NCBI GenBank assembly: GCA_002288455.1
Contig: NEUS01000017.1
Coordinates: 1 to 49,169 of the forward strand
Length of the DNA: 49,169 nt
From: Opitutia bacterium Tous-C1TDCM
Lineage (GTDB): Bacteria > Verrucomicrobiota > Verrucomicrobiia > Opitutales > Opitutaceae
Direction of reading: 5' to 3'
The stretch's first letter is position 1, and each line of letters begins with the position of its first letter. The translations under genes were made by a program, and so were the position numbers. The notes under the pieces were generated by a model, which saw only the letters and a program-made list of their open reading frames with translations, ran no database searches and was not told the origin of the DNA. Shown piece after piece: positions 8,995-48,889 of this stretch.

Positions 8995-11871
8995 TCAGTC
9001 GAACGCGTAGGACACGCTCAGACCGAAGCTGCGGCCCTTGGTGTGGCGCGCGTGGATCAGGTCCGAATTCTGCAGCCCGATGGTTTTCTCGTGGTCGGGA
9101 TCCAGGAGATTCCGGGCGCTGAACTTCAGCTTCCAGCGGGCGGAAAGACGCTGGGAGAGTACGAAGTTGAGCAGCGGCGCGGGCTGCTCGTACACGTCGG
9201 GCAGCGGGCCGAAATTGACGAGGTCGAGACGCTCGCCGACCACGTTGAACGAGATTGTCGCCAGCGTGGAGGAGGCCCGGCGGTCCCACGTCACATCGAA
9301 GTTGAACACGTAGGGCGACTGGCCGAGCAACTCGCGTTTGTCCGAGGCCTTGGCGTCGAAGGCCCGCAGAATCGCCAACTCGCGCGCCGGGATGGTGATT
9401 TCGGAAGCGACAAACGTCAGGTTCGTTCCGACCGAAAAATCCGCCATGGCACGGTGCAGGAACCGGAGATCGCGGCGGAACTCGAACTCCACGCCTTGCA
9501 CGGTGCCGCGCGCGACGTTCTGCGGCTGGATCGAGCCGACCGTGGGCTCGTAGAGCACCTCGATCGGATCGCGCATCCGCTTGTAGAAGGCGGAAACCGC
9601 GATCGTCTCGCCCCGGCGCGGAAACCACTCCCAGCGCAGGTCGAAATTGTCGATCACGGTGAGCTCGAGGTCCGGGTTGCCGAGGTACACATCGCCGGTG
9701 AAAACATCCTCGTAGCGGATATCGGTGAGCTCCTTGTAGGTCGGGCGCGCCATGGTGCGGCCGTAGGCGACGCGCCAGTTGGTCTTCGGCGTCGCCGCCC
9801 AGACAAAACTCAGCGCGGGCAACGTATCCGTCTGGTCGATCTCGCCCGGTTTCGGCGTCGAGCCCACGGTGGCCCGCGGCGCGGTGCGCAACTCCGTGGC
9901 TTCAAACCGCACGCCGGCGATCACCCGCAGGTCCCGGGCCAGCTGACCGTCGAACATCGCGTAGCCGGCGCGGATCTTTTGCTCGCCGGTGTAGTTGTTC
10001 GGCTCCTGCAGCCGGGACACCGTGTTGCCGAACGTCACGTTGTTGGCCGTGCGGCCCAGAATGCCCACCGGCGCCGGAAAGGTCTCGAAGTCGTTCCGGG
10101 ACCGCGGACTGAGACCGTACTGGAAACGCTGCTCCCGGTAGTCGCGATCGTTTTCCGAAGCGAGCGCGCCCACCTTCACGCGGTGCTCCCGCCCGCCGGG
10201 CGCGAACGGATACGTCAGGTCGACCGCGCTTTCCGTGGCATCCTCCTCGAGTTCCCGGAAGAACCGGTTCGGCTGCACGCCGGTGGCGTTCACGAACGTG
10301 CCGCCGGGCGTGTAAATCGCGGCCAAGGTCCGGTAATCCGGCTGATCTTGGGTGCTGCGCGACTGCGATACGCGCCATTCGAGCTGCAGGTCGCCCGCCG
10401 CCGGGAAGACACTCTTCCCCGCCAATTGGGCCGAGCCGACCATGCGTTCGGTGCGGAGCACATCGTACACTTCGAAAACGCTGCCCACGTAGTTGATCGC
10501 TTCCTCGCCGACGCCCCGGCGGACTTCGCTGTCGGTGCCCCGGGTGAAAAAGAGGTCGAGCGACGCCTCGTGCTGCGGACTGGTCCGCAGGGCCAGTTTC
10601 GCGAAACCGCCGCGCGATTCGCTTTCCGTGCTCGCCGTCACGCCGAAAGCCGGCGCGCTGCGGGCGGTCGCCGGATCGAAGGAAAGTTGGCTGCGGTCGC
10701 GGCTGAGCAACAGCCGGGCCTGCGGGGCGTCGGGCGTGCCGAGGAAGCGGTTCGCCTCGCCGCCGGTGGAATGCGCAAAACTCCGGTCGAAGGTCGCCGA
10801 AACGATGTAGCCGAACAGACCGTCCTCTCCCCACGCGTGCCGGTTGCCGAAGGCCAAAGAGCCCGAGGTGTTCAGGGGCGCCTTCTCCCGGCCGGGATAC
10901 ATGCCGGCGGAAAACAGCTTGGTGGCGCGATCGAGCTCCTCGGCCGGAATGAAATTGCCCTGCCGCGCCGCCAACTCCGCCTGGGTGCGGGAGGGCAGCA
11001 GCACCGAGACCGCCGGCACCGACCCGAGATTGCCCGGCGCGACCAGAATCTCTTCCCCCGAGGCGTTGGAGTTGTGCGTGGCGCCCAGCGACACCGTGAC
11101 GAAGAACCGTTCCGCAAACGACTTCGTTTTCACGTTCACACTGCCTCCGGAAAACGCCCCCGGCTGCTCCGGCGTAAACGATTTCGTCGTGGTGATCGAA
11201 TCCAACAGATCGCTGGGAAACTGGTCCATCTGGACGGCGCGCTTGTCCGGATCGGCGGACGGCACCGCCGCGCCGTTGAGCAGGGTGTTGGAGTAGCGGT
11301 CGCCCAGGCCGCGGATCAGGACGTACTTCCCATCCACGACACTGGCCCCCGTGACCTTGCCGAGCGCCTCGGCCGCATTTCCGACTGCGAGCCGGGAAAA
11401 TTGATCGCTGCCGATCGCATCGCTGACGGCGATCGCCTTCTGGCGGGCGCCGAGCAAGCCGATATCGGAACCGGCCACAACCTCCGCGGAGACGCTGAAG
11501 GCCTCCAACTTCAGCACCGGATCGGCGCTCGCCTGCAGCGGGAGATCGACCCTGACATTGCCGCCGGCCGTTACGGCGACTTCCGTGACCTCCGCCGGCC
11601 GGTACCCGTCTTTGGAAACGGCCAGCGTGCGCATCCCGGCCGCCACATTGCGCAGCGCGTAGCTGCCGTTCAGATCGGTCGTCGCCAGAAGCAGCGTCCC
11701 GGCGACCGTCACCGTCGCACCGGCGACACCCTGGCCGGTTTCCGCGCTGACCACTTTGCCCGCGACCGCGCCGGTGCCGTCCTGGGCGGCCCGCAATGCG
11801 CCGCCCGCGCAGAACAGCAGAATCAAACCGATCCGGCGGAACGGGCCGGCGTCAGGGAAGCACGTGATCAT
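8995..11871 (-). CDS. TonB-dependent outer-membrane receptor with carboxypeptidase-regulatory-like N-domain
   Basis: The protein has 958 residues from the ATG at 11871, which begins a signal peptide (RRIGLILLFCAGGALRAAQD). The open frame continues upstream, but through the hairpin region. Residues 34-112 form a carboxypeptidase regulatory-like beta-sandwich (GAVAGKVVSAETGQGVAGAT). A TonB-box-like KLEAFSVS lies at 121-128. The plug contains YVLIRGLGDRYSNTLLNG (183-200), and the 22-strand barrel ends in the usual aromatic residue (SVSYAFD). It would import a large substrate using TonB energy; the ligand is not known. It heads a two-gene operon with the beta-helix protein and is divergent from another TonB receptor. 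Its leader carries a terminator-like hairpin, so expression may be attenuated. Confidence 0.9.
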   Translation of the reverse strand: MITCFPDAGPFRRIGLILLFCAGGALRAAQDGTGAVAGKVVSAETGQGVAGATVTVAGTLLLATTDLNGSYALRNVAAGMRTLAVSKDGYRPAEVTEVAVTAGGNVRVDLPLQASADPVLKLEAFSVSAEVVAGSDIGLLGARQKAIAVSDAIGSDQFSRLAVGNAAEALGKVTGASVVDGKYVLIRGLGDRYSNTLLNGAAVPSADPDKRAVQMDQFPSDLLDSITTTKSFTPEQPGAFSGGSVNVKTKSFAERFFVTVSLGATHNSNASGEEILVAPGNLGSVPAVSVLLPSRTQAELAARQGNFIPAEELDRATKLFSAGMYPGREKAPLNTSGSLAFGNRHAWGEDGLFGYIVSATFDRSFAHSTGGEANRFLGTPDAPQARLLLSRDRSQLSFDPATARSAPAFGVTASTESESRGGFAKLALRTSPQHEASLDLFFTRGTDSEVRRGVGEEAINYVGSVFEVYDVLRTERMVGSAQLAGKSVFPAAGDLQLEWRVSQSRSTQDQPDYRTLAAIYTPGGTFVNATGVQPNRFFRELEEDATESAVDLTYPFAPGGREHRVKVGALASENDRDYREQRFQYGLSPRSRNDFETFPAPVGILGRTANNVTFGNTVSRLQEPNNYTGEQKIRAGYAMFDGQLARDLRVIAGVRFEATELRTAPRATVGSTPKPGEIDQTDTLPALSFVWAATPKTNWRVAYGRTMARPTYKELTDIRYEDVFTGDVYLGNPDLELTVIDNFDLRWEWFPRRGETIAVSAFYKRMRDPIEVLYEPTVGSIQPQNVARGTVQGVEFEFRRDLRFLHRAMADFSVGTNLTFVASEITIPARELAILRAFDAKASDKRELLGQSPYVFNFDVTWDRRASSTLATISFNVVGERLDLVNFGPLPDVYEQPAPLLNFVLSQRLSARWKLKFSARNLLDPDHEKTIGLQNSDLIHARHTKGRSFGLSVSYAFD

Positions 11872-11993
11872 GGCCTCATAAGGGCTACGGCGCAATTCCC
11901 CGCGGCAACGCAATTGCTCACCGGCCGCGGGATCTTCACCGGTCCGCCACCTGGCTGTAACATTTGTGTCTGTCCCGCGTCCGTCCGCGGACG

Positions 11994-12027
11994 AAAAAAA
12001 GCCGCCTCCCAACCCCTGGGAGGCGGC
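11994..12027 (-). terminator. Terminator-like hairpin in the leader of the TonB receptor gene (candidate attenuator)
   Basis: GCCGCCTCCCA (12001-12011) and TGGGAGGCGGC (12017-12027) form a perfect 11-bp stem with a five-base loop. On the minus strand it is followed directly by seven T residues (12000-11994). It lies 123-156 bp upstream of the minus-strand receptor start, and no minus-strand gene precedes it. It would therefore end either a small RNA or a prematurely stopped leader of the receptor mRNA. Confidence 0.6.
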
Positions 12028-12043
12028 CACTGACCTTGACACC

Positions 12044-12088
12044 TTGAACAACCGCGGCGAAAGACGCGCCGCGCCGCGCGGTGTTCAA
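12044..12088. repeat. Inverted repeat next to the candidate attenuator
   Basis: TTGAACA-A-CCGCG (12044-12056) pairs with CGCGG-TGTTCAA (12077-12088) with one bulged base. On the minus strand this stem precedes the terminator-like hairpin by 16 bases, as the sensing part of a riboregulator would. It could also be an operator. Confidence 0.45.
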
Positions 12089-12362
12089 CCGCAAAACCCG
12101 CCGGCACCGCGATGTCACCCCGCCGTCACCGGGCCCGCACTGCTGTAACTGAAATCCCGATACCGGCGGCGCCGGCGCGGCCGGACGCCGCGCCGCGGAC
12201 CCGTCCGGCACGCCGGAAAACGGCGGCGTGCGACGGTCCGGTGGCGGCCGGGTTACATTCCCGCGTCGTCGCTCCGCGCAGATTGACGCGGACCTCACCC
12301 CTCGGCTCCGGTCGCTCCCGCGGATCGCCGCCGATCCGGCACCTACCACCACCGTTGAACCT

Positions 12363-15158
12363 ATGAACTTGCCTTCCTTCCTCCGCGGCTTCCGCGCCGC
12401 CTTGCTCCTGCCGGCGACTCTCGCCCTCGCCGCCGCCCTGCCGGCCCAGACCACCGGCACCGTCGCCGGACGCGTCACCGATGCCCAGACGCGGCTCGCC
12501 CTCGGCGGCACCCGCGTGACCGTCGGCGGCACCGCCCTGGCGACCTACGCCGACAGCACCGGCGAATTCGTGCTGGCCGGCGTCCCGGCCGGTCCGGCCG
12601 CACTCGAGTTCAGCTACCTGGGTTACCCGGAGCTGCGCAAAACCGTGGCCGTGGTCGCCGGCGGCACCGTCCGCGCCGACGCCGCTTTCGGCACCGACAT
12701 CGTGGCCTTGGACAAATTCGTCATCACCGGCTCCGTCGTCGGATCCGCCCGCGCGCTCAATCGCCAGCGCGCCGCCGAAACCCTCAGCAACATCGTCGCC
12801 TCCGACGAAATCGGCAACTTCCCCGACCAAAATGCCGCCGAGGCCATCCAGCGCATTCCCGGCATCTCGCTCTACCGCGACCAAGGCGAGGGCCGCTACA
12901 TCGTCCTCCGCGGACTCAACTACAACTACACCTCGGTGAAAGTGAACGGCGGTTCCTTCGCCGGCGCCGATCTCGGCGACCGCGCCACGCCGCTCGATGT
13001 GATCCCGTCCGACGCCCTCGCCGCCATCGAAGTCACCAAGGTGCCGACGCCGGACATGGACGGCGAAGGCCTCGGCGGCCAGGTCGACATCAAGACCAAG
13101 AGCCCCTTCGACGCCGACGGCCTCGCCGCCAACGTCAGCGCGCAGGGCCAGTACTCCTCCCTCACCGGCGAATACAGCAGCAAGTTCAACGGCTTCGTCT
13201 CGCAGCGCTTCGGCGCCGCCAACCAGTACGGACTCCTGATCTCGCCTTCTTGGCAGGAACGGAAATTCGGCTCCCACAACTTCGAGACCGGCGGCGACTG
13301 GATCGCGCCGGCCGCGAACCGCACCGCTTTCTACACCATCGGTTCGGTCCAATTCCGCGACTATGTGATCAACCGGGAACGCTACGGCCTGAACGCCGCC
13401 TTCGAGACCCGGCCCGACGCCGCGACCTCGCTGTATGTGCGCGGAGGCTACAACCGCTTCACCGACACCGAGAGCCGCCACCTCACGATCTTCGATTTCA
13501 CCGAGGGCACGCTCAATGCCGCGTCCGTCACGGCCAACTCCGCCACCTACACCGGGCTCCGCCGCTTCGGCCGTCGCCTGCGCATCCGCGAGAAGGACCA
13601 GGAAGTTTCGACCGTCGTCGCCGGCGGCGAGAAACGCCTGGGCGCCTGGACCGTCGACGCCCAGGCCGGCTACACCGAGGGCAACGAAAAGCGGCCCGAT
13701 GAACTGGGCGCGCGCTTCCGCCGCAACTCCCGCGACAGTTCCGTCCGCTACACCACTTCCGGTCCCTACGGGATCGCTGTCACGCAGCTGGCCGGTGCCA
13801 GTTTCTTCGAGCCCACGTCCTACGATTTCCAACGCGTGGACCTCGCCAACGACCGCGGCTCCGAAACCGAAGGCACGTTCGGCTTCAACGCCCGCTACGA
13901 CCTCGGCCGCGACCTCAGCTACGTGAAATTCGGCGCCCAGCACCGCGCCAAGGAGAAGGAAAGCGAGAGCGAAGTCTACGAGCTCACTTCGGCGCCCGCG
14001 ACCTTCCGCTTCGCCAATCTCGCCGAACCGGCCGGCGACTATCCGTACCTCCGGGTCCCGCGCATCCGCACCGCCGCGGTGCAGGAGGCGTTCTACGGCA
14101 ACCGCGCCGCCTTCACCGGCACCCGCGTCTTCGAGGATTCCGAATTCGAGGATTTCTCGATCTCGGAGGACGTCACCGCGGCCTATGTCATGGGCGGCGC
14201 GACCTACGATCGCCTCAACCTCATCGGCGGGATCCGCGTCGAACGCACCGAATTCGCCAGCAACGGCAAAACCCTCGACCTCGCCCGTTCGGTCGCGACG
14301 CCCTCGCGCGCCTCGCGGAGCTACACCAATTGGCTGCCCGGCCTCTACGCGCGCTTCAACGCGAACCGGAACCTTGTGCTCCGCGCCTCCTGGTCCAACG
14401 CCCTCGCCCGGCCGTCTTTCGGTGACGCCGCGTTCCGCTCCCTCGTGGACAACGACAGCTTCGAGATCCTCCGCGGCAATCCCAACCTCCCCGCGCTCGA
14501 AGCGGAAAGCTGGGACGCCTCCGCCGAGTACTATCTGCCGTCGCTCGGCGTGCTCTCGGTCGCGGTCTTCCGCAAGGACATCGAGAACTTCTCCTACCAA
14601 TACAACGATCCCGCGCCGTTCCTGATCGGCACGCAGGCCTATCGGTTGTCGACGTTTGCCAACGGCTCGAAGGGCCGCATCAACGGCCTCGAGCTCGCCT
14701 ATCAGCAGCAACTGCGGCAACTGCCGGCGCCGTTCGACGGCCTCGGGGTCCTGGCCAACGTGACCTTCCTCGACAGCAAAGCGACCTACCCCACCCGGCC
14801 GCGCGAGCAAATCCCGTTCGTCGGGCAGTCGGACCGCACGGGCAATGTCGGCGTCAGCTATGAGAAACGCGGCCTCTTCCTCCGGCTGGCGCTCAACTTC
14901 CGCTCCGAGCGCCTGCGCGAGGACGAACCGCTCGGCGGCACGGCCCCGCAGGATCTCTACGTCGACGATTTCAAGCAGCTCGACCTTACCGCCCGCTATT
15001 CGTTCGGCCGCAACTGGGAAATCTTCGCCGAGGTGCTGAATGTCACCGACGAACCGTTCCGCGTGTTCCTGAAGAGCGACAATGGCCAAGGCGCCCGCCT
15101 CGGCCAGGTCGAGGAATACGGCTGGAGCGCCAACTTCGGCGTCCGCTGGAAGCTCTGA
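12363..15158 (+). CDS. TonB-dependent receptor of the Xanthomonas/Caulobacter type (TIGR01782-like)
   Basis: The protein has 931 residues from the ATG at 12363, which opens a signal peptide (LRGFRAALLLPATLALAAALPAQ). The frame is open 45 codons further upstream, but without a signal-like start. Residues 32-110 form a carboxypeptidase-regulatory-like domain (GTVAGRVTDAQTRLALGGT). A TonB-box-like ALDKFVIT follows at 115-122. The plug has the family signature NFPDQNAAEAIQRIPGIS (152-169) and YIVLRGLNYNYTSVKVNG, and the barrel ends in WSANFGVRWKL. Relatives import carbohydrates or other large ligands; nothing here fixes the substrate. It is single, followed by a strong terminator, and divergent from the receptor at 8995-11871. 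The two receptors belong to different subfamilies, so they are not a recent duplication. Confidence 0.92.
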   Translation: MNLPSFLRGFRAALLLPATLALAAALPAQTTGTVAGRVTDAQTRLALGGTRVTVGGTALATYADSTGEFVLAGVPAGPAALEFSYLGYPELRKTVAVVAGGTVRADAAFGTDIVALDKFVITGSVVGSARALNRQRAAETLSNIVASDEIGNFPDQNAAEAIQRIPGISLYRDQGEGRYIVLRGLNYNYTSVKVNGGSFAGADLGDRATPLDVIPSDALAAIEVTKVPTPDMDGEGLGGQVDIKTKSPFDADGLAANVSAQGQYSSLTGEYSSKFNGFVSQRFGAANQYGLLISPSWQERKFGSHNFETGGDWIAPAANRTAFYTIGSVQFRDYVINRERYGLNAAFETRPDAATSLYVRGGYNRFTDTESRHLTIFDFTEGTLNAASVTANSATYTGLRRFGRRLRIREKDQEVSTVVAGGEKRLGAWTVDAQAGYTEGNEKRPDELGARFRRNSRDSSVRYTTSGPYGIAVTQLAGASFFEPTSYDFQRVDLANDRGSETEGTFGFNARYDLGRDLSYVKFGAQHRAKEKESESEVYELTSAPATFRFANLAEPAGDYPYLRVPRIRTAAVQEAFYGNRAAFTGTRVFEDSEFEDFSISEDVTAAYVMGGATYDRLNLIGGIRVERTEFASNGKTLDLARSVATPSRASRSYTNWLPGLYARFNANRNLVLRASWSNALARPSFGDAAFRSLVDNDSFEILRGNPNLPALEAESWDASAEYYLPSLGVLSVAVFRKDIENFSYQYNDPAPFLIGTQAYRLSTFANGSKGRINGLELAYQQQLRQLPAPFDGLGVLANVTFLDSKATYPTRPREQIPFVGQSDRTGNVGVSYEKRGLFLRLALNFRSERLREDEPLGGTAPQDLYVDDFKQLDLTARYSFGRNWEIFAEVLNVTDEPFRVFLKSDNGQGARLGQVEEYGWSANFGVRWKL

Positions 15159-30466: not shown

Positions 30467-31135
30467 ATGATCATCCAAAGCCTCCCCCTCGCGTTCCTCC
30501 TTGGTGATGCCACCATGATGGACCTCTTCATTATGGGCGAATGGATCATGTGGCCCATGATCCTCACTTCGTTCGTCATGATCACCGTTGTGATCGAGCG
30601 TCTGCTCTTCATCTTCCGCGAAAACTCGAGCCGGGAGCCGGAAGTCGTCGAAAAGATGCTCGAGGCCGTCGAGCGCCGCGACATCGATAGCGCCCTCGCC
30701 CTCGGCAAGAAGAGCAAGGACTACATCGCCAAGATCCTCGTCTACTCGCTCAGCAACCGCGAATTCTCCCTCTCCAACGCGTTCATCCGCGCCTCCGGCC
30801 AGGAACTCACCCGCTTCCAGCAGGGCATGGCCACTCTCGATACCTGCATCACCGCCGCCCCGCTGCTCGGTCTGCTCGGTACCGTCACCGGCATGATGCG
30901 TACGTTCGGCGCCCTCGGTGGCGGCGACGTCGGTGCCGCTGCCGGTGCGATCACCGGTGGTGTCGCCGAAGCGCTCATCGCTACCGCCATGGGTCTCGCC
31001 GTCGCCATCGTCGGACTGCTCCCCTTCAACTATCTCAATGCCCGCTCCGAGCAGGCCAAGCAGGAAGTCGCCGACGTCTCCCACGCCCTTGAGATCCTCC
31101 TCAAGAAGTCCGAGACCGGCTCCCTCTCCCGCTGA
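30467..31135 (+). CDS. exbB: MotA/TolQ/ExbB-family proton channel protein
   Basis: The protein has 222 residues with three membrane segments (about 20-45, 125-150 and 160-185). The conserved channel helices read LDTCITAAPLLGLLGTVTGMM and ALIATAMGLAVAIVGLLPFNYL. ExbB forms the pentameric proton channel around ExbD and drives TonB in the inner membrane. It is the first gene of a seven-gene operon, 56 bp before the first exbD. The N-terminus is short, with no periplasmic extension of the kind seen in some marine ExbB proteins. ATG 30467 is preferred; Met16 or Met17 could also start the protein. Confidence 0.93.
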   Translation: MIIQSLPLAFLLGDATMMDLFIMGEWIMWPMILTSFVMITVVIERLLFIFRENSSREPEVVEKMLEAVERRDIDSALALGKKSKDYIAKILVYSLSNREFSLSNAFIRASGQELTRFQQGMATLDTCITAAPLLGLLGTVTGMMRTFGALGGGDVGAAAGAITGGVAEALIATAMGLAVAIVGLLPFNYLNARSEQAKQEVADVSHALEILLKKSETGSLSR

Positions 31136-31191
31136 TTTCTTCTAAGAAGAATTCCGCACTCACGTCGTAACCAGCAGAGCCCCTCAAAACC

Positions 31192-31623
31192 ATGGCCGGA
31201 TCATCAGGTGGCAACAGCGGCGGCAAGAAGAAGGCGCGTATCGAGATCATTCCCCTGATCGACGTCGTCTTCTTCCTGCTGGCGACGTTCGTGCTCTTCA
31301 CGCTCTCGCTCAACAAGTCCAACGGCGTCGCCGGCATCAACCTGCCGCAATCCGAAACCGGCGCCGCCCGCGATCCTTCCGGCACGGTTACCATCTCGGT
31401 CACCGAAGCCGGGACCATCGCCTGGAACAAGGATTTCATCAGCCTCGCCGAGTTCATCGAACGTCTCAAAGCCTACAAGCTGTCCGATCCGAGCGGCCGA
31501 ATTTTGATCAACGGTGACGAGGGTGCGATGTTCAACTCCGCCCTTTACGTCTTCGACGAAGCCCGCAAATCCGGCTTCGAAAAAATCTTCATCGAAACGA
31601 AGGTCCGCGCCACCGGCAAGTAA
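31192..31623 (+). CDS. exbD: ExbD/TolR-family protein, first copy
   Basis: The protein has 143 residues. A short cytoplasmic Lys-rich start (SGGKKKARIEI) precedes one membrane segment with the proton-carrying Asp in PLIDVVFFLLATFVLF. A periplasmic domain covers 55-140 (SGTVTISVTEAGTIAWNKD; ILINGDEGAMFNSALYVFDEARKSG). It would pair with ExbB and transmit proton flow to TonB. The second exbD starts 31 bp downstream. The membrane segments of the two copies are almost identical in DNA while the periplasmic domains diverge. Confidence 0.92.
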   Translation: MAGSSGGNSGGKKKARIEIIPLIDVVFFLLATFVLFTLSLNKSNGVAGINLPQSETGAARDPSGTVTISVTEAGTIAWNKDFISLAEFIERLKAYKLSDPSGRILINGDEGAMFNSALYVFDEARKSGFEKIFIETKVRATGK

Positions 31624-31653
31624 CGCCGGCCGCTCCTCAACACTCTTCCCACC

Positions 31654-32106
31654 ATGGCCGGATCCAGTCCTCATGCCGACGAAGGCAAGAAGAAGGCACG
31701 TATCGAGATCATTCCCCTGATCGACGTCGTCTTCTTTTTGCTCGCGACGTTCGTGCTCTTCACGCTTTCCCTCCAGCGTATTTCGTCGGTCGACGTCACG
31801 CTCCCGAAGGCCGACCCGACCGCGCAGCAAAAGAAGCAGGAAGATACGACGGTGTACCTGCAGGTTTCGGACGAAGGCACCTACTACTGGAAATTCGGCG
31901 AAAATCCCGCGGAGCTCATCTCCACGGGTGAAATCGCCCCCCGTCTCGCCGATTACCGGAACAGCCTCGGGACGAATGCCCGCGTGCTGGTTCGCGGCGA
32001 CAACCGCGCCCGCTTCGGCGCCGCCGTCCTCGCGCTCGATGAAGTCCGCAAATCGGGCATCGAACAGATCTCGGTTGAAACCGTCCAAAGCCAGACCGGC
32101 CGCTAA
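31654..32106 (+). CDS. exbD: ExbD/TolR-family protein, second copy
   Basis: The protein has 150 residues with the same layout as the first copy: Lys-rich start, PLIDVVFFLLATFVLF with the key Asp, then a periplasmic domain (TTVYLQVSDEGTYYWKFGE; ARVLVRGDNRARFGAAVLALDEVRKSG). The two copies could form a heterodimer in the ExbB pore, replacing the usual ExbD homodimer. The tonB gene follows after 12 bp. Confidence 0.92.
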   Translation: MAGSSPHADEGKKKARIEIIPLIDVVFFLLATFVLFTLSLQRISSVDVTLPKADPTAQQKKQEDTTVYLQVSDEGTYYWKFGENPAELISTGEIAPRLADYRNSLGTNARVLVRGDNRARFGAAVLALDEVRKSGIEQISVETVQSQTGR

Positions 32107-32118
32107 GCCGACCCTACC

Positions 32119-32772
32119 ATGAGTCGCGATTTAATTATTGGTATTCTGATCTCGGTTGCCCTGCATGTCGGCGTCCTTTTCGGCGATAAGCTTATCCCCG
32201 ACGAGAAGAAGGTCGTCGCCGTCGCCAAGGAGGAACCGAAGATCCAGCTGATGGAAATGCCCAAGATGGAGGAAGAACCTCCGGAGATCATCGAGACCAA
32301 CGAGGAAGTGAAGCCCCTCGATCTTGCGCCGCCGATGCAGCAGGATCAACCGCAGCTCGCGACCCCGGATTCCTTCGTCCAGAAGATCCAGCCGCCGCCG
32401 CCCGAGAATGTCGCCATTTCGGCCTCGATGAGCATCGTTCCCGAAGTCCGCGATCCGAACATGTTCCGCGGCATGAAAGTGTTCGACGTCTCCATGCTCG
32501 ACCAAACTCCGGTCGCAAAATTTCAGGCCCGCCCGCAGTACCCGTTTGAAATGCGCCGCGCCGGCATCGCCGGTGAAGTGGTCGTCGACTTCATCGTCGA
32601 CACCAACGGCGACGTCCAAAACGCCTACGCCATCCGTTCTTCCCAGCGCGAATTCGAAGCCGCGGCCGTTCAGGCCGTCAGCAAGTGGAAGTTCAAGCCC
32701 GGTCGCAAAGGCGGCCGCGATGTGCCTACCCACATGCAGGTGCCGATCGTCTTCACCCTTAACGAGGAGTAA
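32119..32772 (+). CDS. tonB: TonB-family energy transducer
   Basis: The protein has 217 residues. One N-terminal membrane helix (5-22, LIIGILISVALHVGVLFG) carries the Ser-xxx-His pair (Ser12, His16) needed to couple to ExbB/ExbD. A Pro/Glu-rich spanner covers about 35-110. The C-terminal TonB domain (about 128-217) includes KFQARPQYPFEMRRAGIAGEV and the YAIRSSQREFEAAAVQAVSKWKFKPG region. It would engage TonB boxes of outer-membrane receptors. The periplasmic spanner is short compared with E. coli TonB. The next gene starts seven bases after the stop. Confidence 0.92.
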   Translation: MSRDLIIGILISVALHVGVLFGDKLIPDEKKVVAVAKEEPKIQLMEMPKMEEEPPEIIETNEEVKPLDLAPPMQQDQPQLATPDSFVQKIQPPPPENVAISASMSIVPEVRDPNMFRGMKVFDVSMLDQTPVAKFQARPQYPFEMRRAGIAGEVVVDFIVDTNGDVQNAYAIRSSQREFEAAAVQAVSKWKFKPGRKGGRDVPTHMQVPIVFTLNEE

Positions 32773-32781
32773 TCCGACGTG
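32764..32781 (+). promoter_or_regulatory. Shine-Dalgarno site that fixes a GTG start
   Basis: GAGGAG (32764-32769), within the last codons of tonB, lies nine bases before a GTG (32779). No ATG near the beginning of the downstream gene would leave a signal peptide intact, so GTG is the start and translation is coupled to tonB. Confidence 0.65.
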
Positions 32782-34227
32782 ACCTTTCCCCTTTCCCATT
32801 CCGCTTTCCGCAGCGCCCGCATTGCGGGGATTGCAGCTGCCTTCGCTCTCTCCGCTTCGCTGGCGTTCGCTCAGCAAGGCGGCGCCCAGAAACAACCGTT
32901 CAGCGTCGGCGAAAAAACCAGCGAGGCTCTGACCAAGCTGAAGCCCCTGCAGGAATCGCAGAACTGGGACGGCATGATCGCGCTGCTCGATGCCATCCCC
33001 GGCATCAAGCCCGACAGCTACGATCAGGCCCTGATTCTGGACATGAAGGCCAAGCTCTTCATCCAGAAGAACCAACTCAACAAGGCGATCGAGCCTTGGG
33101 AAAAAGTAGTCCAACTCGCCGAGACCCACGGCTACTTCGAGAAAAAACAGATCCTCGATATCGTTACCTTCCTCGCCCAGCTTTATGCCCAGGAAGGGAC
33201 CTCCTCGAAGGATCCCGTCGTCCAACAGCGCAACTTCGGCAAGGCCGTCACCTACTTCAAGCGCGTGATGGAGAACACGCCGAAGCCGACGCCTGAGCTG
33301 ATGATGACCTACGCGTCTATTCTCTACTACAAGGGAGCCAGCCCGACCAATCCCGATCCGGCTGCCATCAAGGAGGCCCGCGAAATTGTCGAAAAAGGTC
33401 TCCTCAGCACGATCCGTCCCAAGGAAGGCTTTTACCAACTCCTCCTCACCCTTCAGCAATCGCAAAACGATCTGGCCGGCTCCGCCGAAGTGCTGGAGCT
33501 CCTCCTCAAACAGTCCCCGGCCAAGAAGGACTACTGGCAGTTGCTGATGGCCAGCTACCTTCAGCTCTCCGAGAAGGCCAAGGACAAGGATCCCCAGCTG
33601 TCGAAAGACTATCTGACGCGAGCCATCGTCACCTGCGAACGCGCCCAGGCCCTCGGCCACCTCGGCACCCCGAAGGACAATATGAACTTGGTTTCGCTGT
33701 ACCTCATGGCGAACCAGTTCACGAAAGGCACGGAGCTGCTCTACAACGGAATGAAGTCGGGCAAGATCGAGTCCGAACCCAACAATTGGCGCGTGCTCGG
33801 CCGTTATTACCTCGAAGCCGACCTCAACACCCAGGCGCTCGCGGTCCTCGCCGAAGCCGCCAAGCTTTTCCCGAAAAACGGCGAAATCGAAGTCCAGCTG
33901 GCCCAGATCAATCTCCAAATGGAGCGCCCCCGCGATGCTTTGCGTCACGCCAAGGCGGCCGCGGCCAAGGGTAATTTCGAATCCACCAAGCCCTTTTCGG
34001 TCCACTATCTGATCGCCTATACGTCCTACGAACTGGGCGAGATCGACGAATCGTTGGCCGCTCTCACGATCGCGGAAAAGTTTCCCGAAGCCGCCAAAGA
34101 CGGCCAGCTGCCGCGCCTCAAGGGCGTCGTCATTGAAGCCATCAACGAGCGCAACGCCGCCAAGGAAGCCAAGGAAGGCAAAGACAAGAAGGCCCCCGCC
34201 CCGAAGCAGCCGGTCAAGAAAGCCTGA
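32779..34227 (+). CDS. Exported tetratricopeptide-repeat protein of the Exb/TonB operon
   Basis: The protein has 482 residues and starts at GTG with a clear signal peptide (ARIAGIAAAFALSASLAFAQQG). The mature part is helical with TPR-like repeats. Examples are NWDGMIALLDAIPGIKPDSY, NQLNKAIEPWEKVVQLAETH, YLEADLNTQALAVLAEAAKLF and GEIEVQLAQINLQMERPRDALRHAK. The C-terminus is Lys-rich (KEAKEGKDKKAPAPKQPVKKA). TPR proteins bind partners; here the likely partners are the TonB/Exb complex or outer-membrane receptors from the periplasm. TPR genes recur next to exb/tonB genes in verrucomicrobial and planctomycete genomes. No catalytic residues are evident. Confidence 0.8.
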   Translation: MTFPLSHSAFRSARIAGIAAAFALSASLAFAQQGGAQKQPFSVGEKTSEALTKLKPLQESQNWDGMIALLDAIPGIKPDSYDQALILDMKAKLFIQKNQLNKAIEPWEKVVQLAETHGYFEKKQILDIVTFLAQLYAQEGTSSKDPVVQQRNFGKAVTYFKRVMENTPKPTPELMMTYASILYYKGASPTNPDPAAIKEAREIVEKGLLSTIRPKEGFYQLLLTLQQSQNDLAGSAEVLELLLKQSPAKKDYWQLLMASYLQLSEKAKDKDPQLSKDYLTRAIVTCERAQALGHLGTPKDNMNLVSLYLMANQFTKGTELLYNGMKSGKIESEPNNWRVLGRYYLEADLNTQALAVLAEAAKLFPKNGEIEVQLAQINLQMERPRDALRHAKAAAAKGNFESTKPFSVHYLIAYTSYELGEIDESLAALTIAEKFPEAAKDGQLPRLKGVVIEAINERNAAKEAKEGKDKKAPAPKQPVKKA

Positions 34228-34254
34228 TCCCCGCCCACTCCTCATCTATTTCCC

Positions 34255-34812
34255 ATGAAGAAAAGCTATATCTATTTCGCCCTTCCCCTCGCCACTCTGG
34301 TAATCTTCTTCTTTGCCTTTTACATGGGCGCCCACCGGGACTTCAAGGACCGCGCGGATGCCAAGGTCAAAGCGGTCCAAGACGCCAAGGAAGCAAAATT
34401 GAAGAAAGAAGCCCAAGACCGTGAGGTCGCCGTCAAGTCCGCGGTCGAACTCCAGGAGAAACGTCGCAAGGAAAAGAAAGAGCGCGACGCGCGCGACGCG
34501 ATGGCCAAGGAAGAACGCGAGAAGGCCCGCCAGGCCCGCGAGAAAGCCGGTCGCGATTCCCAGAAATTCAAGGAAACGGTCGGTCGCCTGAAGAAAGAAA
34601 TCGAAGTAGAGAAAAAGCAGATCGCCGAAGTCCAAATTGAGCGCAAACGGGTCACCGAAGAGCAGGCCTTCCTGCGGGACTACGTCAAGAAAGCGGAAAC
34701 GAACCAACGCAGCCTGATGGGGGTCATTGAACGGATCGAAGCTGCCGACAAAGCCGCCGAAGCCGCCGCTCGAGCCGCTGCTGCCGCTGCCGCCGCCGCG
34801 ACCAAGAAATAA
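34255..34812 (+). CDS. Membrane-anchored coiled-coil protein I of the Exb/TonB operon
   Basis: The protein has 185 residues and I do not recognise a named family. An N-terminal membrane helix (4-25, SYIYFALPLATLVIFFFAFYMG) is followed by a long, highly charged coiled coil (about 30-160) rich in Lys, Glu, Arg and Ala. An Ala-only tail ends in ATKK. By the positive-inside rule the short MKK start is cytoplasmic and the coil periplasmic. It sits 27 bp after the TPR gene and 24 bp before a second gene of the same design. An attractive inference is a periplasmic scaffold tied to the TonB complex, by analogy with TolA. This is not shown by sequence similarity. Confidence 0.75.
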   Translation: MKKSYIYFALPLATLVIFFFAFYMGAHRDFKDRADAKVKAVQDAKEAKLKKEAQDREVAVKSAVELQEKRRKEKKERDARDAMAKEEREKARQAREKAGRDSQKFKETVGRLKKEIEVEKKQIAEVQIERKRVTEEQAFLRDYVKKAETNQRSLMGVIERIEAADKAAEAAARAAAAAAAAATKK

Positions 34813-34836
34813 CCTTTAGCCTACCGCACACACCCG

Positions 34837-35376
34837 ATGAAAAAGTGGATGTATCTCATTCCCCCGACGATCATGTTGGGACTCTTCACGATCGTTTACT
34901 TCTCCCACGTCGAGGAGCGCCACGTGAAGGAGAAGGCCAAGGTAGAGAAGATTGCCAAAGAGAAGGCCGAGCTGGACCAGAAGAAAAAGGTCGCCGAAGC
35001 CAAGGCCCGCGAAGACACCAAGAAGCGCAACGAAGAACGCGACGCCGAAGAGGCCAAGAAGGAAAAGGACAAGATCGACAAGCAGGCGGCCAACGACAAG
35101 GAAGTCCGCGATGCCACGGCCCAGTACAATGCCGAGGCCGACAAGTTCGCCAAAGAAGCCGGCAACCTCGAAATCGAGCTCGATCGCCTCCGCAAGGAAA
35201 AGGACAAGCTCACCCGCGAGACCTTCGACATTGCCAAGCAGGTTGAACTCGCTCGCATCGCCCGTCGTAACGCCGAGCTCGAGATCCAGCGCGTAACCGA
35301 GATGATCCATCGCCGTGCTTCCGCCAGTTCGCTCGTGAAGCCGCCGGTGATCCCGCCCGCGCCCGCAAAATCCTGA
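34837..35376 (+). CDS. Membrane-anchored coiled-coil protein II of the Exb/TonB operon
   Basis: The protein has 179 residues and no named family. A membrane helix spans residues 4-22 (WMYLIPPTIMLGLFTIVYF). A charged coiled coil with heptad-like Ala/Leu spacing covers about 25-155. A Pro-rich C-terminus (KPPVIPPAPAKS) could be a binding tail. It shares the MKK-helix-coil plan with the preceding gene, but the sequences differ, so they are ancient paralogues or convergent. It is the last gene of the operon and is followed after 20 bp by a strong terminator. Confidence 0.75.
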   Translation: MKKWMYLIPPTIMLGLFTIVYFSHVEERHVKEKAKVEKIAKEKAELDQKKKVAEAKAREDTKKRNEERDAEEAKKEKDKIDKQAANDKEVRDATAQYNAEADKFAKEAGNLEIELDRLRKEKDKLTRETFDIAKQVELARIARRNAELEIQRVTEMIHRRASASSLVKPPVIPPAPAKS

Positions 35377-35396: not shown

Positions 35397-35424
35397 AGCC
35401 CCGGAGCAATCCGGGGCTTTTTTT
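35397..35424 (+). terminator. Intrinsic terminator of the exbB operon
   Basis: AGCCCCGG (35397-35404) and CCGGGGCT (35411-35418) form a perfect stem with a six-base loop, followed by a run of seven T residues. It ends the seven-gene operon. Confidence 0.92.
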
Positions 35425-48226: not shown

Positions 48227-48889
48227 ATGAAGCATTCCATCAAATCCCTTGTCGCCCTCGCGGCGTTCGGGCTCGTCACGCTGGCCGCCAGCGCCCAGCC
48301 GGCCGCCAAGATCCTCGTCGTCGACATGGCCAAGCTGTACGACACCCACTACAAGACGCTCGAACAGAACGCCAAGATCCAGAGCGACGACCAAAAAGCC
48401 CAGGAAGAAGTCGACAAGATGAACAAGGAGGGCAATGCCCTCGTCGAGGAATACAAGAGCCTCAATGAACAGGCCGGCAACGCCGTTCTCTCCGCCGAAG
48501 CCAAGTCCAAGGCCCAGAACGAGGCCCAGAAGAAGCTCGAAGCCATCCAGAACAAGCAGAACGAGGTCCGCAGCTTCATTCAAAACACCCGCAACTCCCT
48601 CCAGCAGCGCCTGCAGACCTTCCGCAGCCTGATGCTCGAAGAGATCGGCAAGATCGCCGCCGACGTCGCCAAGCGCAAAGGCGCCACCCTCCTGTTCGAC
48701 AAAGCCGGTCCCTCCCTCATCGGCGTTTCCAACATCATCTATTCCGATCCCGCGTACGAGATCACCGACGACGTCATGAAGGAAATCAACAAGGACCGTC
48801 CCGCCGGCGCTCCGACCGCCGCCCCGGCCGCCGCCCCCGCCGCTGGTTCTCCGACCATCAGCCTTCCTGGCGTTGGTACCAAGAAGTAA
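48227..48889 (+). CDS. skp: OmpH/Skp-family periplasmic chaperone
   Basis: The protein has 220 residues. A signal peptide (SIKSLVALAAFGLVTLAASAQ) precedes the OmpH domain (28-190), with two long coiled-coil arms (LEQNAKIQSDDQKAQEEVDK and EAQKKLEAIQNKQNEVRSFI) around a small beta core. A low-complexity Ala/Pro tail ends in GVGTKK, longer than in E. coli Skp. It holds unfolded outer-membrane proteins and delivers them to BamA, coded 41 bp upstream. The shared operon fits this. Confidence 0.92.
   Translation: MKHSIKSLVALAAFGLVTLAASAQPAAKILVVDMAKLYDTHYKTLEQNAKIQSDDQKAQEEVDKMNKEGNALVEEYKSLNEQAGNAVLSAEAKSKAQNEAQKKLEAIQNKQNEVRSFIQNTRNSLQQRLQTFRSLMLEEIGKIAADVAKRKGATLLFDKAGPSLIGVSNIIYSDPAYEITDDVMKEINKDRPAGAPTAAPAAAPAAGSPTISLPGVGTKK

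Follow-up and report, generated by a model that had tools for sequence, protein, structure and literature searches.

Operon layout and conservation

We describe here a seven-gene operon for a TonB-type energy-transducing (Ton) system on contig NEUS01000017.1 of Opitutia bacterium Tous-C1TDCM, a member of the Opitutaceae (assembly GCA_002288455.1, 86% complete, hereafter G000); "the window" means the whole stretch analysed, 49,169 nucleotides long. ORF (open reading frame) calling places exbB, exbD1, exbD2, tonB, a tetratricopeptide repeat (TPR) gene, CC1 and CC2 on the + strand at 30467-35376, separated from 5' to 3' by 56, 30, 12, 6, 27 and 24 bp. Gene exbB (30467-31135) encodes a 222-aa MotA/TolQ/ExbB proton-channel protein (Pfam MotA_ExbB, E 1.6e-25), exbD1 (31192-31623) and exbD2 (31654-32106) encode ExbD proteins of 143 and 150 aa (Pfam ExbD, 6.9e-24 and 4.4e-20), and tonB (32119-32772) encodes a 217-aa protein with an N-terminal anchor and a TonB_C domain (7.9e-21). 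ExbB, ExbD and TonB_C matches, each above its Pfam cut-off and encoded together, mark the locus as a TonB system. The TPR gene (32779-34227) has a GTG start and encodes 482 aa with Pfam TPR repeats and an N-terminus that by eye resembles a signal peptide. CC1 (34255-34812, 185 aa) has an N-terminal transmembrane (TM) segment, a charged helix, an outer coiled coil and an Ala-rich tail, and CC2 (34837-35376, 179 aa) has an N-terminal TM segment, a long modelled helix and a Pro-rich tail; neither matches a Pfam or NCBIfam family above its cut-off. An intrinsic terminator follows on the same strand (35397-35424), comprising a hairpin at 35397-35418 (9-bp stem with 7 G-C pairs) and then TTTTTT. The ORFs and the hairpin thus bear out an earlier note on this DNA, which had read the locus as seven genes on one strand with gaps of 6-56 bp ending in a terminator.

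Gene order was surveyed in two samples of loci. Many of the family loci had been chosen through a TPR match; hence a second survey was seeded by CC2 alone, using the best 80 of 96 relatives, at loci in named genomes. The named loci overlap the other genome set, so the two samples are not independent. Among 60 loci from the family or genus, two (L113 and L114) are operons of another type, with TtpC (described below), and the other 58 are of the CC type; the seven genes stand in order in 55 of these 58, and the remaining three (L060, L068 and L069) end at contig ends. The complete order is likewise found at 66 of the 80 CC2-seeded loci, three of them (L237, L309 and L312) with split or over-extended frames, and the other 14 are interrupted by a contig end. 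CC2 was never found apart from its neighbour genes among these 80 loci where the contig reaches them, and CC1 and CC2 are present at every locus whose contig spans the operon (55 and 66 loci, overlapping sets). With the order kept in 55/58 and 66/80 loci, the survey that the earlier note had proposed indicates that the arrangement is more than chance. L111, whose second ExbD is labelled exbD1, was excluded from several statistics. As side observations, the operon has eight genes in L104 and L105 of genus g16, through an additional CC1-like gene; in L058 an in-frame stop, which may be real or a sequencing error, divides exbB (1881-2552 along the operon) into pieces of 62 and 160 aa, and exbB is split in L237 too.

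Across 150 genomes of the family, CC2 was found in 120, with strong matches (E 9.3e-29 or better) in 117 after removal of weak matches in G078, G098 and G134; the TPR protein was found in 122, a few of them inside TtpC operons. The earlier note would have given way had the last three genes been missing from most genomes with the exb cluster, and with these counts it stands on this point. Carrier records include Opitutus, Lacunisphaera, Cephaloticoccus and Didemnitutus, and two (L250 and L309) are titled Acidobacteria, labels that are unconfirmed. Beyond the family, the whole operon was found at two loci (L161 and L162), in genomes from two different families of the same order. A search of 177 genomes of the order gave a CC2 match in 20, of which 15 are family members; of the five others, G186 and G265 hold the operon, G321 has a weak match only, and the remaining two are G238 and G211. 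No strong CC2 match beyond the family and G186 was found among 387 genomes of the phylum, and weak matches elsewhere in it (2.5e-6 or weaker, mostly inside long frames) were set aside as chance helix matches.

A first terminator scan, which found 11 terminator-like sites in 9 kb compared with 11.3 in shuffled sequences, proves nothing alone; the site after CC2 has the longest stem of the 11. A strict scan for a hairpin plus T-run in equal 120-nt intervals downstream of each gene was positive for CC2 in 31 of 55 loci, compared with 0, 0, 0, 0, 0 and 1 loci for the six preceding genes (shuffle rate 0.2% in an earlier 170-nt version); the other 24 loci have no such terminator after CC2. No gene outside the operon recurs in more than 14 of 55 loci, where flanks are short (median 2.2 kb upstream and 2.7 kb downstream). 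Median gaps across loci are, in order, 50, 39.5, 15, 6, 18 and 21.5 bp; the tight spacing that the earlier note stressed holds for the window operon and is relaxed in places, the widest gaps being those on either side of CC1 in L100 (263 and 285 bp). The hairpin counts (31/55 after CC2, 0-1/55 internally) agree with that note's picture of one unit ending in a terminator, and they support, as far as sequence can, a conserved transcription-unit-like set read as a single transcript ending after CC2.

The TPR gene and TtpC-type operons

The earlier note took operons of only exbB-exbD-tonB as its yardstick, counting three extra proteins. That yardstick is too narrow: the TonB2 operon of Vibrio vulnificus, as presented in PMC6957404, consists of six genes, ttpB-ttpC-exbB-exbD-tonB-ttpD, whose products include a 255-aa DUF3450 protein (TtpB2) and a 425-aa TPR protein (TtpD2). 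Siderophore uptake through this system is reported there to require all six proteins, the TPR protein included, and how TtpB, TtpC and TtpD work in extended Ton systems is given as unknown (PMC6957404). DUF3450 is still catalogued as a domain of unknown function, according to PMC12505986. In Teredinibacter a tonB2 gene from a ttpB-ttpC-ttpD cluster is reported also to serve growth on cellulose (PMC10734418), and such systems are therefore not necessarily limited to iron.

Operons with this layout are widespread in the order of the window's organism. TtpC, a long MotA-family protein with an N-terminal extension, was found at 37 of 40 loci, and the same 37 have a TPR match (E up to 0.01). These loci are not a random sample: 20, together with five of alignment A4, were selected for a TtpC, TPR or ExbD match, and another 15 extra-family loci, of which 12 are TtpC operons, were hand-picked from TPR profile matches, two of them (G028 and G031) with an adjacent ExbD already known before picking. 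Among the 37 TtpC loci, profiles recognised TonB in 31, and 30 have an ORF of about the size of TtpB upstream; all four of the TtpC loci tested were confirmed to contain DUF3450, which identifies TtpB as the DUF3450 protein. A midpoint-rooted tree of 57 TPR proteins, 21 from CC-type operons and 36 from the 37 TtpC operons (L318 fell below the length limit), places the CC-operon proteins in one clade (98/94) that joins the TPR proteins of TtpC operons L113, L114, L324 and L332 in a group of 25 rows (100/100). In the window the TPR gene starts 6 bp after tonB, the position of ttpD. Its product is modelled as a helical protein with a mean predicted local distance difference test score (pLDDT) of 90.6; comparison of the model returned only generic TPR superhelices (best query template-modelling score 0.40 among the matches listed), and a sequence search of the PDB returned only TPR proteins and designs. 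The TPR gene is best read as a counterpart of ttpD, in a sequence comparison confined to proteins other than Vibrio TtpD. Because the TonB2 operon has a TPR gene and its layout occurs in many genomes of the order, the gene is not an extra, and the Vibrio layout, the TtpC operons of the order and the TPR tree led us to reject the idea that it had been added in this operon alone. What remains of the earlier note's three extra proteins is CC1 and CC2, which are new.

Compared with the Vibrio TonB2 operon, the window operon has in common ExbB, ExbD, TonB, a TPR gene next after tonB and accessory modules beside the motor within one operon; it differs in having two ExbDs, neither TtpB nor TtpC, and CC1 and CC2 at its 3' end (PMC6957404). 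The nearest operons of the same order (L113, L114, L324 and L332), of the form TtpC-ExbB-ExbD(-ExbD)-TonB-TPR, share the core order and the TPR grouping, with two ExbDs in L114, L324 and L332, as in the window, and one found in L113; they differ in having TtpC, no CC1 or CC2 and an ExbB of another branch, and DUF3450 is present in both of those tested (L114 and L324). The ExbB-ExbD-TonB system of E. coli has the same motor and transducer families, with one ExbD and without TPR or helical partners. Domain II of TolA in the Tol-Pal system is likewise a long helix in the periplasm, carried by an N-terminal anchor, and CpoB is a TPR protein encoded in a motor operon (PMC12204202, for what it covers of this system); CC1 and CC2 differ from TolA in having no Pfam match to the TolA/TonB C-terminal domain, with TonB encoded by a separate gene. 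The nearest published neighbours, as far as the cited accounts go, are the TPR-TolQ-TolR-TolR-vWA sets of the PVC (Planctomycetes-Verrucomicrobia-Chlamydiae) group and a row for Verruconatronum, a relative. The PVC sets also have a TPR gene, one tolQ-like and two unlike tolR-like genes, with a vWA protein as transducer where the window has TonB, CC1 and CC2 (PMC12204202). The Verruconatronum row lists TonB with two TolQ/ExbB and TolR/ExbD genes (PMC13274419) and may be a TtpC-type cluster.

CC1, CC2 and the two ExbD proteins

CC1 (41 rows in alignment A1) and CC2 share one build, in which a short N-terminal stretch leads into one TM segment and on to a helix of about 140-150 residues and the Ala-rich (CC1) or Pro-rich (CC2) tail. 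The TM segment contains a proline, conserved without exception in CC1 and almost so in CC2. Residues 26-95 are 45-61% charged and 6-18% apolar, and opposite-charge pairs at i/i+4 number 21 over residues 29-95 of the window proteins compared with 11-12 in shuffles, and 11 and 10 in the outer part compared with about 6. In both proteins the inner part has the look of a single charged helix. A significant heptad signal extends outwards from residue 81 in CC1, with a clear coiled coil at 81-160, and is confined to about 61-115 in CC2, so the description of both as coiled-coil proteins in the earlier note applies to these sections only. AlphaFold2 modelled CC2 as one helix over residues 8-163 (156 residues; mean pLDDT 90.1, predicted template-modelling score 0.41). 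The roughly 140 residues predicted to lie beyond the membrane would measure about 21 nm at 0.15 nm per residue, near the usually quoted width of the periplasm. Both helices are predicted to face the periplasm, and given the single modelled helix of CC2, the larger periplasm-spanning machine envisaged by the earlier note is plausible.

Profile comparison with hhalign relates CC1 to CC2 with a probability of 99.2 (E 2.9e-19), which makes them likely paralogues, with the caution that charged helices resemble one another. Homology to the accessory proteins of the TtpC operons was looked for in the same way and rejected as undetected: probabilities are 18.8 for CC2 and 10.1 for CC1 with TtpB (DUF3450; profile of 10 rows), and 3.4 and 0.6 with the N-terminal domain of TtpC (profile of only 5 rows), with both profiles drawn from the window's own order and none of the sequences from Vibrio. 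TtpB and the TtpC N-terminal domain resemble each other (probability 89, E 2.3e-6). Each operon type thus appears to have a pair of related accessory modules, and the pairs are not detectably related to one another. Indels inside CC1 and CC2 are rare (0.74 and 0.42 per 100 residues per pair, compared with 2.0-2.3 in TonB, TPR and ExbD2).

The two ExbD proteins of the window have an identical 29-aa TM segment and diverged periplasmic domains, and the segments (31225-31311 in exbD1 and 31687-31773 in exbD2) are also close in DNA. The TM aspartate that binds protons is present in 110 of 110 ExbD rows. Within one genome (55 loci), ExbD1 and ExbD2 average 97% identity in the TM segment and 33% in the periplasmic domain; between genomes, the 29-residue segment is about 95% identical for every pairing, and orthologous periplasmic domains are 52-56% identical. 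This pattern fits a motor with one ExbD of each kind, in which the axle is kept to a single sequence. Within the segment, codon identity is 0.64 for ExbD1 and ExbD2 of the same genome and 0.52-0.54 between genomes, with 0.49 expected from codon use and the same-genome value above expectation in 49 of 55 loci, a hint of gene conversion limited to the TM segment.

Proposed replacement of the TtpB/TtpC module and its meaning

We propose, at a probability of roughly 0.55, that the operon is an Opitutaceae Ton system of the TtpD type in which an unrelated pair of long-helix proteins, CC1 and CC2, took over from the TtpB/TtpC module. ExbB, ExbD1 and ExbD2 would form a proton-driven motor, with an axle that is probably made of one ExbD of each kind; TonB would carry force to TonB-dependent receptors, and the periplasmic TPR protein would act as an adaptor, as thought for TtpD in Vibrio. 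CC1 and CC2 would be anchored in the inner membrane beside the motor and reach outwards as long helices, each made up of a charged stalk, a stretch in which CC1 and CC2 may pair with each other, and a tail. In place of the TtpB (DUF3450)/TtpC module, they would hold or position the motor, the TPR adaptor and TonB, with which they may be in contact, across the periplasm. More tentatively, CC1 and CC2 could be a new class of periplasm-spanning rods, mechanically coupled to the ExbB-ExbD1/ExbD2 motor as a gauge or second force path and displacing the unrelated TtpB and TtpC in one family, a possibility to which we give well under even odds.

The window operon has a gene at the ttpD position and neither TtpC (among its ORFs) nor DUF3450 (by Pfam). 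No full-length TtpC stood among the matches listed for G000, at 86% completeness of the assembly, and its sole DUF3450 match (2.4e-4, window positions 48338-48622) lies below the cut-off. By tallies from genome lists, with negatives obtained by subtraction, CC2 is present without full-length TtpC in 94 of the 150 family genomes and full-length TtpC without CC2 in 20; another 23 genomes have both, and 13 have neither. DUF3450 was found above its cut-off in 41 of the 150, all of them TtpC carriers and G000 not among them, and with matches down to E 0.001 in 87, G000 included. Since the TtpC type is widely spread, the direction of replacement would be from TtpB/TtpC to CC1/CC2, and since the two systems can coexist, we infer replacement in many genera and not strict exclusion. 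Family genomes without a strong CC2 match (G055, G143, G175 and others) are rich in TtpC, with at least 8 full-length matches in G055.

Several points weigh against this proposal. The association of CC2 with TtpC (Fisher p 1.5e-5 in a 2x2 test) ignores shared ancestry, and the 23 genomes with both systems and the 13 with neither do not follow a simple exchange; of the latter, G008 is interrupted by a contig end and others are fragmentary, and G045 (98% complete) and G172 (99%), with neither CC2 nor full-length TtpC, are unexplained. In the ExbB tree, the sequences from CC-type operons make up a clade of their own (100/98), which nests in neither the TtpC branch nor that of the short ExbBs. The operon is therefore no simple edited copy, and the tree does not support descent of its ExbB from short ExbB or from TtpC; the clade joins a long-branched ExbB from L164, a placement about which the tree program itself gives a warning. 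On the mechanical side, CC2 gives no significant heptad signal over residues 111-160, and charged sequences tend to come out as long helices in models. The idea that CC1 and CC2 keep their total length better was rejected, their coefficients of variation (2.7% and 3.7%) being no lower than those of their operon neighbours (TonB 1.8%, ExbDs 2.0-2.2%, TPR 2.9%); a ruler role thus leans on the low indel rate, in a comparison that sets proteins of different build side by side. Finally, G000 has five TonB_C matches in addition to that of the window operon, including one in the cluster on contig C78 (below), and the window TonB therefore need not serve all receptors.

Alternatively, CC1 and CC2 could be envelope spacers or tethers that run from the inner membrane to the cell wall or outer membrane and share the transcript without a role in Ton energy transfer. 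A TM segment, a long helix and a short tail are also the layout of a spacer, and the rarity of indels within the helices and the lack of detectable kinship with TtpB or TtpC would suit one; yet CC2 does not occur without the other operon genes in the 80 CC2-seeded loci, as far as contigs reach, and genera that rely on TtpC lack a strong CC2 match, which makes a general envelope need less likely. We regard the spacer explanation as doubtful.

The proposed system, with CC1 and CC2 in place of TtpB and TtpC, probably powers nutrient import through the outer membrane. A task other than import (Tol-like, motility or secretion), comparable to the PVC-group TPR-TolQ-TolR-vWA sets of unknown function, would accord with the NCBIfam scores, in which ExbB and both ExbDs match TolQ/TolR best, all below cut-off, but it is improbable given the clear TonB_C domain of the transducer, a separate cluster elsewhere in the genome that looks Tol-like and the 86 Plug matches in G000, which bear only indirectly on whether the operon drives uptake through TonB-dependent receptors. 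Among the ExbD loci of G000, a TonB_C match adjoins only the window operon and the cluster on contig C78 (L165). That cluster, Tol-like by eye, comprises exbB, exbD and a gene whose 322-aa product matches TonB_C weakly; other motor genes are an ExbB-ExbD pair on C84 and a weak ExbD match on C151. Least probable is an opposite topology, with cytoplasmic helices that would assist assembly of the ExbB pentamer or regulate it: lysine plus arginine average only 1.8 (CC1, range 0-3) and 1.6 (CC2) before the TM segment compared with 2.6 and 3.3 over the 15 residues that follow, but the latter are nearly cancelled by aspartate plus glutamate (2.4 and 2.9), short MKK or MNK starts are common in anchors with the N-terminus inside, and TtpC, whose place CC1 and CC2 seem to take, starts by eye like a signal peptide.

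The window also holds two divergent genes for TonB-dependent receptors with CarboxypepD_reg and Plug domains (8998-12051 on the - strand and 12228-15155 on the + strand), possible clients of the operon. A selenocysteine tRNA called by ARAGORN at 11449-11531 lies inside the first of these genes on the same strand and is therefore probably a false call. tRNA genes flank the operon, for Lys, Thr and Gln upstream and for Pro downstream.

TonB operons with extra genes and TtpD-type TPR proteins were known already, and CC1 and CC2 are new here; no description of this arrangement was found in the titles and abstract openings listed by searches of an open-access library, literature outside it being unsearched. 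Two ExbDs with one common TM helix make the question of a mixed axle testable. Along with a retained TPR protein, the apparent swap of two of three modules would make this family a natural experiment, in which the common ground of the two solutions may reveal the function of the module.

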